Source of the DNA: a virus
Virus record (IMG/VR): IMGVR_UViG_3300028812_000015
Span: 1 to 27,624 of that record
Length of the DNA: 27,624 nt
Strand: one strand, 5' to 3'
Positions within the stretch are counted from its first letter, which is position 1. Each line of letters starts with the position of its first letter. Shown here one piece after another: positions 2,777-22,112 of the stretch. Below the pieces are notes generated by a model. The model had not been told where the DNA came from and ran no database searches. It worked only from the letters and a program-made list of their open reading frames with translations. The position numbers and the translations under genes were made by a program.

Positions 2777-2965
2777 CTTTTTTTCGAAGCTTTTTTTCCC
2801 AAGTCGAGGCATGCTGCAAAGCGTATGAAGAGAACTTCCGCCAGAAGTATGAATTACAAACAGGAGTACCAAACCATCGAAAATTTTTATTAGTCGTAGG
2901 CTTATCTAATCATACCCATTCCCCTTCACCCGGGGAAGTTTGTAATCAGGGTCTACGGCTTCTTA
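2777..2965 (+). other. Non-coding leader with hairpin ahead of the replication genes
   Basis: No convincing gene. It holds a T7-CGAAGC-T7 direct repeat at about 2778-2798 and a 22-codon ORF at 2825-2893 without a ribosome-binding site (unlikely to be translated). It also holds a hairpin TTCCCC (2919-2924) - 7-nt loop - GGGGAA (2932-2937) without a T tract, and then the terminator that follows. The combination of two hairpins could be the 3' part of a small RNA or an attenuator leader. Confidence 0.4.
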
Positions 2966-3005
2966 AGGTCCCCCGTCCTGGCGGGTAGGGGACCTCTCTT
3001 TTTTT
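2966..3005 (+). terminator. Rho-independent terminator before the replication operon
   Basis: AGGTCCCC (2966-2973) pairs with GGGGACCT (2988-2995) around a 14-nt loop, followed by CTC and a run of seven T (2999-3005). It separates the small gene at 2606 and the non-coding leader from the replication operon, whose own promoter starts eight bases later. Confidence 0.85.
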
Positions 3006-3012
3006 ATGGTGT

Positions 3013-3059: not shown

Positions 3060-4088
3060 ATGCCTAGAATTAATTTCGATGACCGTTGGTTAGTGGATCC
3101 GCGGAGAGAAGATCTTTCTGCCGCGCTGGGGAATCCTTTATTGGTGGAAGGCGTCGTCTATCGTCTCTGGAGAGCCAGTCAGGATTATTGGGTGAAAAAG
3201 TTACTGATCCCTGGCCATGTCTTTGTCCGACTGCCTCACGCAGAAACTCTTTTAAAAATAGGATTGGTCCGCGTATACCCGACTAATGAGATTTGGCTTT
3301 ATCCTGATCGGAGTGAGAAGCACCCGAACGTGCCCGAACGGAGCCCGAACGAGACCGAACGAGACTCGAACGCCCATCGAACGACCCCCGAACGACCCTT
3401 AACGGAAGTCGAACGCTGTTATGTTTATGCGAACGGTAGTCGGGAATATCACTTTTGGCTCATTGAAGGTCAACTTCAGAGGGTCCAAGCAGGTAAACGG
3501 TCGGCTGAAAAGCGACGTTTAAAGCATGGTACAGCTCAACCGAAGCCAAAAAATCTCGAACGGAGCCGAACGGAGCCCGAACGACCCCGAACGGTCTCGA
3601 ACTACTCTACCTCTGTCTCTTCCTCTTTCTCTTCTTCTGATTCTGTCTCTTCCTTGGGGGTTGCCGGGCAAGAATCCCGGCCGACCCCTTTGATGGTTCC
3701 GGCTGGTTCTTTGGATGAACTGATTGGGGACTCAGAAGGAACCACCCCTGGGTCTAGGGTTTGGAAAGTCTATGCGGAGGGAATCCAAGCCAAATATAAA
3801 AAACCCCCGATCCGTAACCGGGATACGAACCGGTATTTCAAGCAACTGGTGGAGAAGCTAGGGGAAGACGAGGCTAGGGAGACGGTCCTGTTTTACTTGA
3901 AGGACAATAAAAAATATTATGAGGACAATCTTCACGACCCGAAGACCCTGTTGAACGATGCGGAAAAACTCAGCCTGAAAAGAAGATCTGGAATCGATTC
4001 GCCCATCCGAAAGGATCTGTCCGTCAGCGAACATAATCAGGCCGTCCTGAATAAATACCTGAACGGTAGCGGAGAACACGTGCAATGA
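3060..4088 (+). CDS. Phage replication initiator, lambda O-like organisation
   Basis: 342 residues. The N-terminal ~75 residues look like a small DNA-binding domain (VYRLWRASQDYWVKK, then HVFVRLPHAETLLKIG). A low-complexity Pro/Glu/Arg/Ser middle (about 85-215) is encoded by the CGAACG repeats and a pyrimidine tract. A conserved C-terminal domain (about 228-310) reads WKVYAEGIQAKY, PIRNRDTNRYFKQLVEKLG, VLFYLKDNKKYY and LLNDAEKL; this block occurs in many phage replication proteins next to a helicase loader. The unstructured middle carrying an origin inside the initiator gene is the arrangement of lambda O. The stop overlaps the next start (ATGA), so the two are translationally coupled. Initiator function is an inference from architecture and context. 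Confidence 0.75.
   Translation: MPRINFDDRWLVDPRREDLSAALGNPLLVEGVVYRLWRASQDYWVKKLLIPGHVFVRLPHAETLLKIGLVRVYPTNEIWLYPDRSEKHPNVPERSPNETERDSNAHRTTPERPLTEVERCYVYANGSREYHFWLIEGQLQRVQAGKRSAEKRRLKHGTAQPKPKNLERSRTEPERPRTVSNYSTSVSSSFSSSDSVSSLGVAGQESRPTPLMVPAGSLDELIGDSEGTTPGSRVWKVYAEGIQAKYKKPPIRNRDTNRYFKQLVEKLGEDEARETVLFYLKDNKKYYEDNLHDPKTLLNDAEKLSLKRRSGIDSPIRKDLSVSEHNQAVLNKYLNGSGEHVQ
3325..3435 (+). repeat. Iteron array 1, CGAACG at helical spacing (putative origin)
   Basis: Exact CGAACG begins at 3325, 3335, 3346, 3356, 3367, 3378, 3389, 3410 and 3430, with a degenerate TTAACG at 3399. Steps are 10 or 11 bp (the last one 20). 3325 to 3430 is 105 bp, or 10.5 bp per step if one skipped site is counted, which is the helical repeat of B-DNA. 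Because 10 and 11 are not multiples of three, the repeats fall in different codon frames, so the conservation is of DNA, not protein. All copies face one side of the helix, as expected for binding sites of an initiator oligomer. Confidence 0.85.
3557..3603 (+). repeat. Iteron array 2, CGAACG at helical spacing (putative origin)
   Basis: CGAACG begins at 3557, 3567, 3578 and 3588, and CGAACT at 3598, again at 10-11 bp steps in the same orientation as the first array. It lies about 127 bp after the last repeat of array 1 (close to twelve helical turns) and directly abuts a pyrimidine-rich tract. Confidence 0.85.
3602..3654 (+). other. Polypyrimidine tract beside the iterons (possible unwinding region)
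   Basis: About 53 bases made almost entirely of C and T (short units such as TCTTCC and TCTGTC), encoding a serine-rich stretch of the initiator. It starts where the second iteron array ends. Strand-asymmetric or easily melted tracts flank iterons at many plasmid and phage origins, so this is a candidate unwinding or loading region. It is not A/T-rich, which weakens the comparison with lambda. Confidence 0.45.
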
Positions 4089-4618
4089 GGGCCGACATCC
4101 TCAAAGCGATGTATGGCCTAGGCTCAGTGTTCAAAGAAAAAATAGACGATAATCTGATTCATATCTGGTGCTCGGTCTTGAAAGACCTTTCTCCGCAGGA
4201 ACTGCAAATGGCGGTGGAGGTTTACTGTAAAGATCCAGAGAATAAATTTTTTCCTAGGGTCGGACAGATTTATGGATTGGCTCGACCCAAGCCTAATTTC
4301 GAGACCGAGGCTCAGCTCTTAGCAGACCGGGTGTACTACGCTGGCTGCGCTTACGGTGCGGACTCGGAAGGAATCGAACGCGCCCGAAAGAAAGTAGGCG
4401 AGCTCGGTTGGAAATATATTCAGAACCAGGGTGGGTTTCAGAAGTTCATCGACCTGATCAATGAGATGGGAGACCCTGGAACCATCAAATCCCAGATCCG
4501 GAAGTCAGTCATAGGCTTGATGGAACAGAACGAGAGGCAAACTCGGATGGAATCCTTGGAGCATCAATCGCGGGATGTTCTCAAAAAGCTGGGCGTGGAA
4601 ATGAAAGTGATTCCTTAG
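4085..4618 (+). CDS. Putative replicative helicase loader
   Basis: 177 residues, mostly helical. The segment from ILKAMYGLGSVF through LIHIWCSVLKDLSPQ, MAVEVYCKDPENKFFP and VGQIYGLARP matches the general pattern of phage helicase-loader or replisome-organiser N-domains: a helical bundle in which W...L.dl...el..Av......+fFP..g.i recurs. No Walker motif is present, so it is not a DnaC-type ATPase. It is coupled by an ATGA overlap to the initiator, the usual O-P or DnaD-loader order. It would deliver the host DnaB helicase to the origin in the gene just upstream. The family call rests on pattern and position. Confidence 0.6.
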   Translation: MRADILKAMYGLGSVFKEKIDDNLIHIWCSVLKDLSPQELQMAVEVYCKDPENKFFPRVGQIYGLARPKPNFETEAQLLADRVYYAGCAYGADSEGIERARKKVGELGWKYIQNQGGFQKFIDLINEMGDPGTIKSQIRKSVIGLMEQNERQTRMESLEHQSRDVLKKLGVEMKVIP

Positions 4619-4628
4619 GAGGAAAAAA

Positions 4629-5168
4629 ATGCATCACCACCAAAAAATCCAATGTAGTCTCTGCGCAAAACTCGTCGCCTCGTGCCGGTGTGTGGATCTC
4701 GATCCCGTGGACTGGCAGGTCCAAGAAGTGAAGTACGTGATTTGTGACGACTGCAAGAATGCGCAGCGTCAAGTTCGCGTATCCTCAGCTCTGGATGGGC
4801 TAAGCGGACGATTAGACAACACGGATAGTTACCTAGAAAAAGTCATTGATCACTTCGGGCCCAGCCACCAGATTATGAAAGCCATCGACGAGATGGCCGA
4901 GCTGACAAGCGCACTCGTGCGGTACCAGAATCAGGCCGGATGGAGTACGCTCGTGATTGACGAGATTGCGGACGTCCTGATTATGGCCCGGCAACTCCGC
5001 CTGATTTTCGGACCCGAATTGGTGGACGGTCGGATGCGATTTAAACTCGACCGGCTGGATTGGGTGATGGAGCGTGAGAGGGATCAGCGTTTAACAAACG
5101 AGGCTGATGCGCCAGGCTTTTTTGGAAAGGCCGTTAAGGGGTTGGGTGCGGAGAAGTCAAAAAATTGA
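4629..5168 (+). CDS. MazG-like nucleotide pyrophosphohydrolase with N-terminal zinc knuckle
   Basis: 179 residues. Residues 9-43 hold Cys9, Cys12, Cys19, Cys21 and later CDDC (39-42), a possible treble-clef or ribbon. The core (about 76-150) has the all-alpha NTP pyrophosphatase signature: DEMAEL (87-92, in the place of ExxE) and DEIADV (111-116, ExxD), followed by the helix LIMARQLRLIFG and a C-terminal FKLDRLDWVMERER like other phage MazG-like proteins. These enzymes hydrolyse NTP or dNTP to the monophosphate; phage versions may tune nucleotide or alarmone pools. A perfect AGGAGG stands upstream. It closes the replication operon. The zinc-knuckle extension is not typical of MazG. Confidence 0.78.
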   Translation: MHHHQKIQCSLCAKLVASCRCVDLDPVDWQVQEVKYVICDDCKNAQRQVRVSSALDGLSGRLDNTDSYLEKVIDHFGPSHQIMKAIDEMAELTSALVRYQNQAGWSTLVIDEIADVLIMARQLRLIFGPELVDGRMRFKLDRLDWVMERERDQRLTNEADAPGFFGKAVKGLGAEKSKN

Positions 5169-20622: not shown

Positions 20623-21351
20623 ATGGGAACGAACACTTTACCCACCCGAGCCAATGGGCAGTTCATGGATGAAACTTGGTTCGACAAAATTAATGAGGCC
20701 CTGTTCGGAGATCTTGTTCCGAGGAACGCGAGTGGGGTGGCCACCAACAACGCAGGCGCCCTGGGAACCGTGACCTATACCTGGTCCCAAGGGGTGACCT
20801 ACTCAGCCTGGTACCGAGCCTTGAATAATTCGAATGTGATTCGGGTCAAATCGCCCGATTCACTCGCCTCGTCCTACGACCTCATTCTTCCGGAATCCCT
20901 TCCGGCTTCGAAGCTGAATCTCTTTCTCGATGAGAATGGACAGCTCGTCGCCGAAGGAGCCACCCAAGCGATCAGTTCCAGCTCGGGGAACTTCTCCAAT
21001 TCTTCGGGAGACTTTGTTCCGGTGACCAACTTCTCGGTGAACCTGGATGTTCCTGGGGGACGGGATGTGGAGATTTTCGTCATCCCCGATGGGAACACGT
21101 CGAACTCGGCTGCTGTAGGAGGAGAGGTGGCGGACACCCTTTTCCGAGTGATGAGGGATTCGACCGAGGTGGGCCGAATTAAATTCGATCATTTCTTTTC
21201 GTCCGAGGCTGTGAGGTACGCGCCGGGCGTTTTAACCTGGCTCGATATCGAGCCGGCTGCGGGAAATTATGATTACTCGCTCGAAGTGCTCGGGTCTTCG
21301 GCGAATGCGTATGTTCAATATTGTAAAATGGTGGCTCGCTTAGCGTTTTAA
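20623..21351 (+). CDS. Tail-tip or fibre protein, copy A of a tandem pair
   Basis: 242 residues, beta-rich. The N-terminal motif RANGQFMDETWFDKINEALFGDLVPR (about 8-33) is shared with the next two genes. The centre has NNAGALGTVTYTW and RALNNSNVIRVKSPD; the C-terminal half holds VPGGRDVEIFVIPDGNTSNSAAVGG and VQYCKMVARLAF. It lies in the place of tail fibres. Copy B follows 35 bases later and aligns along the whole length. Confidence 0.65.
   Translation: MGTNTLPTRANGQFMDETWFDKINEALFGDLVPRNASGVATNNAGALGTVTYTWSQGVTYSAWYRALNNSNVIRVKSPDSLASSYDLILPESLPASKLNLFLDENGQLVAEGATQAISSSSGNFSNSSGDFVPVTNFSVNLDVPGGRDVEIFVIPDGNTSNSAAVGGEVADTLFRVMRDSTEVGRIKFDHFFSSEAVRYAPGVLTWLDIEPAAGNYDYSLEVLGSSANAYVQYCKMVARLAF
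21312..21335 (+). repeat. 24-bp perfect direct repeat, first copy
   Basis: Identical over 24 bases to 22073-22096, near the 3' ends of the tandem fibre genes and encoding V-QYCKMV. Flanking third codon positions differ strongly, so this patch is far better conserved than its surroundings. Confidence 0.8.
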
Positions 21352-21386: not shown

Positions 21387-22112
21387 ATGGGTTTAGATAC
21401 CTTAGTCGATCGCGCAGACGATCAAACCATTAGTCAGGACTGGTACAACTCCGTCCACTCAGCCCTGAAAGGAGACTTTGTTCCGAGAGATTCCAGTGGC
21501 GCCCCCACCAACAATGCGGGTGCCTTTGGTTCAACCACTTATACTTGGACCAGGAATGTGGCCTACTCCTACCACCACCGCGCTTTAAACAATTCCAATT
21601 TAGTGCGCGTGAAGGCGCCGGATGACCTTGCTGCCACGATCGATATGATCTGGCCCACCGCTTTGCCCAGTGGAAAGCGCGCGGTCTTCATGGATCAGAA
21701 TGGCCAACTCTATGCGGAGCAAGTGACTCGAACGATCAGTCCGAGCTCAGGTGCTTGGTTTGATTCCACAGGAAGCTTTACCACGGTCACCAATTTCGCC
21801 GTCAGCTTAACGGTGCCTGCCGGAAGAGACGTTGAGGTGTTTGTCATTCCGGATGGGGACACTTCCAATTCCGCAGCGGTCGGAGGACAAGCAGAAGTTC
21901 ATTTCCAACTCCTCCGAGATGCAACAGAAGTCGGCCGAGCCAAGATCGATAACCCTACAACAAGCACACTGATTCGAGTGGGTCCAGGGTGTTTGCGATG
22001 GATCGATGTCAACCCCGGTGCAGGAACTTATCTCTACACCCTCAAGGGCAGAAGCACCACGGACTCGGTGTTTGTTCAATATTGTAAAATGGTGGCGCGA
22101 GTCGCTCCTTAA
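21387..22112 (+). CDS. Tail-tip or fibre protein, copy B of a tandem pair
   Basis: 241 residues, colinear with copy A: RADDQTISQDWYNSVHSALKGDFVPR, NNAGAFGSTTYTW, RALNNSNLVRVKAPDD, VPAGRDVEVFVIPDGDTSNSAAVGG and VQYCKMVARVAP. Most other positions differ, so the duplication is old. A strong AAGGAAGG precedes its start. Divergent copies may assemble as a hetero-oligomer or recognise different receptors. Confidence 0.65.
   Translation: MGLDTLVDRADDQTISQDWYNSVHSALKGDFVPRDSSGAPTNNAGAFGSTTYTWTRNVAYSYHHRALNNSNLVRVKAPDDLAATIDMIWPTALPSGKRAVFMDQNGQLYAEQVTRTISPSSGAWFDSTGSFTTVTNFAVSLTVPAGRDVEVFVIPDGDTSNSAAVGGQAEVHFQLLRDATEVGRAKIDNPTTSTLIRVGPGCLRWIDVNPGAGTYLYTLKGRSTTDSVFVQYCKMVARVAP
22073..22096 (+). repeat. 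24-bp perfect direct repeat, second copy
   Basis: Second copy of the repeat at 21312-21335. Recombination between the two would delete exactly one fibre gene. Confidence 0.8.

Follow-up and report, generated by a model that had tools for sequence, protein, structure and literature searches.

In bacteriophage λ, the replication origin lies in the middle of gene O and comprises iterons and an AT-rich tract (PMC7466680). RK2 TrfA binds both to iterons and to one strand of the repeated 13-mers in the DUE (PMC4081077), and in bacterial oriC double-strand sites are followed by short-unit repeats that act as strand-specific single-strand sites (PMC10201434). For the Obolenskvirus phages Brutus and Scipio, an origin has been proposed at short direct repeats located mid-gene, upstream of the helicase; the accessible part of that account describes neither one-turn phasing nor an iteron-plus-tract layout (PMC10888812). 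It is established that initiator genes can contain origins, and individual phages have been described with repeats in these genes.

The locus considered here belongs to a 27,624-nucleotide stretch of viral DNA (IMG/VR record IMGVR_UViG_3300028812_000015), referred to below as the window (Table 1). As in λ, it has a mid-gene position, repeats that are candidate initiator-binding sites, and a special tract on one side. The λ O/P module has a helicase-loader gene next to the initiator, and in the window the next ORF is a candidate loader with a weak match. The differences are in the repeats and the protein. λ has four 18-bp iterons at steps of 20–24 bp (we computed lags of 20 and 23), whereas the window has a 6-bp core at steps of 10 or 11 bp; the single AT-rich tract of λ has no clear short unit, whereas the tracts of the window and of the families described below are built from tandem units of 5–7 bp. 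Homology to λ O itself is missing, and only the C-terminus matches an annotated O protein of a Pseudomonas phage. RK2 oriV resembles the window in combining double-strand iterons with repeated units in an unwinding element (a candidate element in the window), but TrfA belongs to a different protein family. Plasmid iterons also have greater length, and the rep gene does not usually contain them. The basal unwinding system of oriC (DnaA boxes and DnaA-trios; DnaD recognition element) has a similar order of sites followed by short repeats, but with units of 3 and DnaA, where the phage layout has units of 5–7 and no DnaA. Given the λ and RK2 precedents, with iterons beside an opening tract and single-strand binding by the initiator, we consider it highly probable that this region is a phage origin within its own initiator gene, with an N-terminal winged helix that would bind one-turn iterons and a tract that may open or be used for loading.

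Table 1. Features of the candidate origin region (window coordinates)
Feature	Position	Strand	Basis
Initiator ORF, 342 aa	3060–4088	+	ORF list; C-terminal match to phage O
Iteron array 1: nine exact CGAACG and one degenerate copy, steps of 10/11 bp	3325–3435	+	
Iteron array 2: four exact CGAACG and a terminal CGAACT, steps of 10/11 bp	3557–3603	+	
Tandem pyrimidine tract, 6-bp CTCTNN-like unit, eight copies; candidate unwinding/loading tract	3605–3652	+	
Downstream ORF, 177 aa; candidate helicase loader	4085–4618	+	phrog_2289 'helicase loader', E = 9e-5 (weak)

The initiator ORF is predicted to consist of an N-terminal winged-helix-like domain, one or more disordered linkers and a C-terminal helical domain, according to a low-confidence AF2 model with a mean pLDDT of 49. 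Residues 234–303 match the 'replication initiation protein O' of Pseudomonas phage LESphi3 (E = 3e-5), in agreement with the original prediction that the arrays lie inside a replication-initiator gene. A Pfam search of the ORF gave no credible match, including to phage replication families, DUF1376, Lin1244_N and DUF6291; hhalign detected no significant homology between its N-terminal domain and the DUF1376 and Lin1244_N profiles, and the model was too poor for a fold search to give a usable result. The candidate loader ORF overlaps the initiator ORF by 4 bp. This gene context supports the earlier proposal that the region is a probable origin. The ORF after the candidate loader (4629–5168) is MazG-like and matches phrog_2245, nucleoside triphosphate pyrophosphohydrolase (E = 8e-21). 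Inspection by eye of the DNA immediately ahead of the initiator gene showed a GC-rich inverted repeat and then a T run (2955–3007), probably an intrinsic terminator or attenuator that precedes the replication operon. The GC-skew minimum of the window falls near 2.0–3.0 kb, where it is confounded by a switch in gene direction near 2.55 kb.

Exact CGAACG copies start at 3325, 3335, 3346, 3356, 3367, 3378, 3389, 3410 and 3430 in array 1 and at 3557, 3567, 3578 and 3588 in array 2, and the degenerate copies are TTAACG at about 3399 and CGAACT at 3598. The place skipped in array 1, at 3420, holds no recognisable CGAACG site. Mean steps are 10.5 bp for array 1, with the skipped site included in the count, and 10.25 bp for array 2, with the degenerate end copy included. 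The 13 exact copies lie where they had originally been reported. Together the arrays, which sit 265–540 bp inside the gene, hold 13 of the 36 CGAACG sites of the window when both strands are counted. Copies in the ORF are spread over all three codon frames. When the protein was held fixed and its codons were redrawn from the usage of the window (20,000 draws), the mean CGAACG count was 1.69 and the maximum 8, compared with the 13 observed, and phased steps averaged 0.25 with a maximum of 5, compared with 11 observed. Because synonymous redrawing never yields more than eight copies, the DNA itself is constrained at the arrays, as had been argued when they were first noticed.

Directly after array 2, and absent from the original prediction, is the longest pyrimidine tract of the window. 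Its units are CTCTAC, CTCTGT, CTCTTC, CTCTTT, CTCTTC, TTCTGA, TTCTGT and CTCTTC, and its lag-6 self-match is 0.73. Although strand-asymmetric, the tract has an AT content of only about 58%, near that of its gene, and on the coding strand it is pyrimidine-rich, whereas the tracts of the DUF1376, Lin1244_N and DUF6291 families are A-rich. This base composition and the opposite strand polarity make an unwinding role less certain for the tract of the window.

We searched viral contigs for CGAACG occurring three times at steps of 10 or 11 bp and found at least 120 such stretches in other contigs. The original prediction of a new type of system is not supported; the layout seen in the window is very widespread, and functionally it would be an in-gene origin of the λ type. 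Among the matches listed, the arrays are usually in sense orientation in the middle of phage replication-initiator genes (DUF1376, DUF6291, Lin1244_N and others): 98 run in the sense direction of the longest ORF that covers them, 16 run antisense and seven have no ORF. All 98 of these sense ORFs use more than one codon frame, and the copies are divided 155/147/135 among the three frames. The check proposed with the original prediction, for relatives with arrays at other codon positions, succeeds both here and in L085/L190, described below. Steps of 13 or 14 bp, used as an off-phase control, gave 62 matches in all, mostly 7-bp tandem runs and unrelated genes, with a sense:antisense ratio of 25:31. 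In cellular genomes the same ratio was 57:54, and the CGAACG scan there returned mostly background repeats without orientation bias. Four cellular matches (L326, L363, L369, L373) have phased CGAACG in initiator-like genes and are likely prophages.

Among 73 in-phase ORFs from the matches listed, the commonest PHROGs are primosomal, replication-initiation or DnaD-like, with phrog_9327 in 41, whereas in the 37 off-phase control ORFs no replication-initiation PHROG has more than 3 matches. The orientation counts provide the cleaner contrast, since the in-phase set comprised sense ORFs of at least 140 aa but the off-phase set took the longest ORF irrespective of strand. The longest ORF just downstream of the array gene contains DnaB_C in 12 of 53 cases and is a DnaC-like ATPase (IstB) in four. 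A tandem tract lies within 90 bp downstream of the array in 38 of 57 CGAACG-selected genes, and upstream in none. In four initiator-type genes (L126, L168, L171, L187), the same CGAACG core recurs at steps of 4, 8, 9 or 13–14 bp, a different iteron grammar.

Because its spacing is fixed by the pattern, this search alone cannot show phasing. We therefore also sampled initiator families by protein, with no spacing assumed. Across 77 DUF1376 genes, identical 6-mers are found again at distances of 11, 22 and 33 bp; their recurrence at 7, 14, 21 and 28 bp is stronger still, and both series stand far above flanking DNA. The 7-bp signal comes from a tandem tract of AACCAAT, CACCAGA and ACACAAG types that in most genes begins about 37–55 bp after the start of the array. 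With a threshold of at least 0.70 lag-7 self-match over 40 bp, the tract is present in 84% of 76 DUF1376 genes and in 0 of 147 flanking controls; array and tract occur together in 58 of the 76 and in none of the 147. Lin1244_N genes have 11-bp arrays and a lag-5 tract in 79% of 72 genes (controls, 0/141), and DUF6291 genes (n = 19) have a lag-6 tract in 79% and a lag-10 array signal in 58% (controls, 0/37). Overall, tract frequency is 79–84% in the family samples compared with 0/325 in flanking controls, although the family percentages are not independent counts because each sample consists of the best matches to one array-bearing query and many of the sequences are related. The layout of these families, with 10–12-bp iterons followed by a 5–7-bp tandem tract, mid-gene on the coding strand, is matched by the window.

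A search with the heptamer tract alone led back to the same genes. It returned 118 sites, 111 of them sense within an ORF at a median position of 377 and 102 in ORFs with a DUF1376-type start, and an 11-bp array was present upstream of 31% of the sites and downstream of 1%. Cultured phages with the tract include Vibrio phages 1.183.O and Seahorse, Thalassomonas phage BA3, Methylophilaceae phage P19250A and Chlorobiaceae phage CV-1-33. A Porphyromonas phage has a 6-bp version in a gene annotated as replication initiation protein, which is followed by a DnaC-like loader. The next gene is DnaB in Seahorse and in the Obolenskvirus IME285, where the period signal is weak. The DnaD motif TnnT was considered as an explanation of the tracts and ruled out, since it showed no consistent excess over shuffles across the three families. 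The annotation of Vibrio phage 1.183.O includes a 'CRISPR spacer' within its DUF1376 gene, immediately ahead of the heptamer tract (L396:1861-1890); these are probably repeats mistaken for CRISPR. Many DUF1376 genes also have a second mini-cluster of 11-bp GCGTTCGC/GCATTGCG-like repeats, at around nt 145–190 of the gene in L207, L241 and L244-L249, within the very part of the gene that codes for the winged-helix domain.

The closest N-terminal relatives of the window protein, L085 and L190, are 29% identical to it over residues 4–175 (E = 4e-14). Their genes contain nine CGAAC copies at steps of 11, 11, 10, 11, 12, 11, 10 and 10 bp, and in L190 a pyrimidine tract of the CTCTTT type begins immediately after the array, giving the same array-then-tract order as in the window. 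Array 2 occupies the position that corresponds by homology to the L085/L190 array, after an AGKRSAE..GTAQP motif. Array 1 is an insertion relative to L085 (about residues 88–123), which the low-confidence model shows as a disordered loop linking the two strands of the wing. The original prediction treated homologous initiators lacking the phased repeats as evidence against it. Such cases do exist in part: LESphi3 O, with repeats of 17 and 22–23 bp, and the protein of Serratia phage Parlo, with repeats of 13 and 24 bp, have other repeats, but they share only the C-terminal domain with the window protein and have a different N-terminal DNA-binding domain. Since that domain is unshared, their different repeats fit an iteron type that tracks the N-terminal domain.

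Mapped onto the N-domain tree, iteron type requires 13 changes, where shuffling gives a mean of 29 and a minimum of 22; on the C-domain tree it requires 24, where shuffling gives a mean of 29 and a minimum of 23. Iteron type is co-inherited with the N-terminal DNA-binding domain and not with the C-terminal one, which is what recognition of the iterons by the N-terminal winged helix would predict. A DUF1376 model (mean pLDDT 80) has a confident N-domain of winged-helix topology and a helical C-domain; residues 121–144 are of low confidence, and secondary structure is lacking up to residue 156. In this family, the DNA that contains the iterons and tract codes for the end of the long helix and for the disordered linker. 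A fold search with the model gave no PDB match reaching E 0.001, the DUF1376 profile matched no PDB sequence, and an NCBIfam search returned nothing useful.

We considered whether the arrays could instead be operators at which the initiator or a repressor silences its own operon. Cooperative repressors, too, typically bind to phased arrays, and the sites are inside the first gene of the replication operon. This explanation is nevertheless improbable because the sites lie 265–540 bp into the gene and not at a promoter, the layout recurs beside DnaB or DnaC-like genes, and an operator has no need of a one-sided tandem tract of 5-, 6- or 7-bp units; autoregulation could exist alongside origin function. 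Partition, packaging or some other cis function located by chance in an initiator gene is harder to credit. Iteron-like repeats do occur at parS-type and pac-type sites too, but these arrays go with replication-initiator genes and not with terminase or par genes.

The remaining explanations assign no role to the DNA sequence as such. Slippage does generate tandem repeats, and a region predicted to be disordered might tolerate them without function. Such neutral expansion is very unlikely to account for a core that stays exact while the spacers differ in sequence and by 1 bp, for out-of-frame periods of 11, 7 and 5 bp, for a fixed order and direction, or for an iteron sequence that tracks one protein domain, and the tract periods are absent from all the flanking controls. 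Alternatively, selection could act on a repeated peptide with the DNA pattern as a by-product, and some tracts of 6-bp period do encode dipeptide repeats (KEKE, DTDT; SxSx in the window). We give this possibility almost no weight, as neither steps of 10/11 nor tract units of 5 or 7 amount to whole codons, the three frames are about equally used among the matches listed, and the synonymous null is rejected. Frame use and the synonymous null rule out a protein repeat as the source of the iterons, a ruling that covers the iterons and not the 6-bp tract of the window taken alone.

An in-gene origin remains the preferred reading, and we propose that it could operate as follows. The N-terminal winged-helix domain of the 342-aa protein would bind CGAACG sites one helical turn apart and, because of that spacing, several copies could load on one face of the helix, as the original prediction supposed, across the two arrays, at up to 13–15 sites. 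The resulting nucleoprotein complex would strain the adjacent 6-bp repeat tract, which would open. One exposed strand might then be held by the C-terminal domain of the initiator or by the candidate partner loader, which would deliver the host DnaB helicase. The protein can tolerate this DNA code because the sites lie in a disordered linker.

A tentative extension, which may well prove wrong, is that many tailed-phage initiator families use a general two-part origin code. One-turn iterons, read by an exchangeable N-terminal winged helix, would be followed by a family-specific tandem tract whose unit of 5, 6 or 7 nt might be the single-strand footprint of one initiator C-domain or loader subunit, as a phage counterpart of the DnaA-trio with the opposite tract polarity in the family of the window. 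In the open literature searched, no account was found of a family-specific short-unit tract paired with one-turn iterons across initiator families, although subscription literature could contain part of this; the layout common to several families appears undescribed. It suggests a probable function, and an exact candidate origin, for the very common 'unknown function' families DUF1376, DUF6291 and Lin1244_N, and offers a sequence-only route to phage origins in metagenomes. It also provides a test system for the passage of an initiator from double-strand binding to strand opening, and the out-of-frame codes in a disordered linker clearly illustrate how a single DNA segment can carry two overlapping codes.

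Two further metagenome contigs contain an identical 1561 bp of the window (100% identity). In the tail/fibre region, the adjacent ORFs 20623–21351 and 21387–22112 encode clearly similar proteins of about 242 and 241 aa with common motifs such as NNAGA.G..TYTW, and constitute a tandem duplication.
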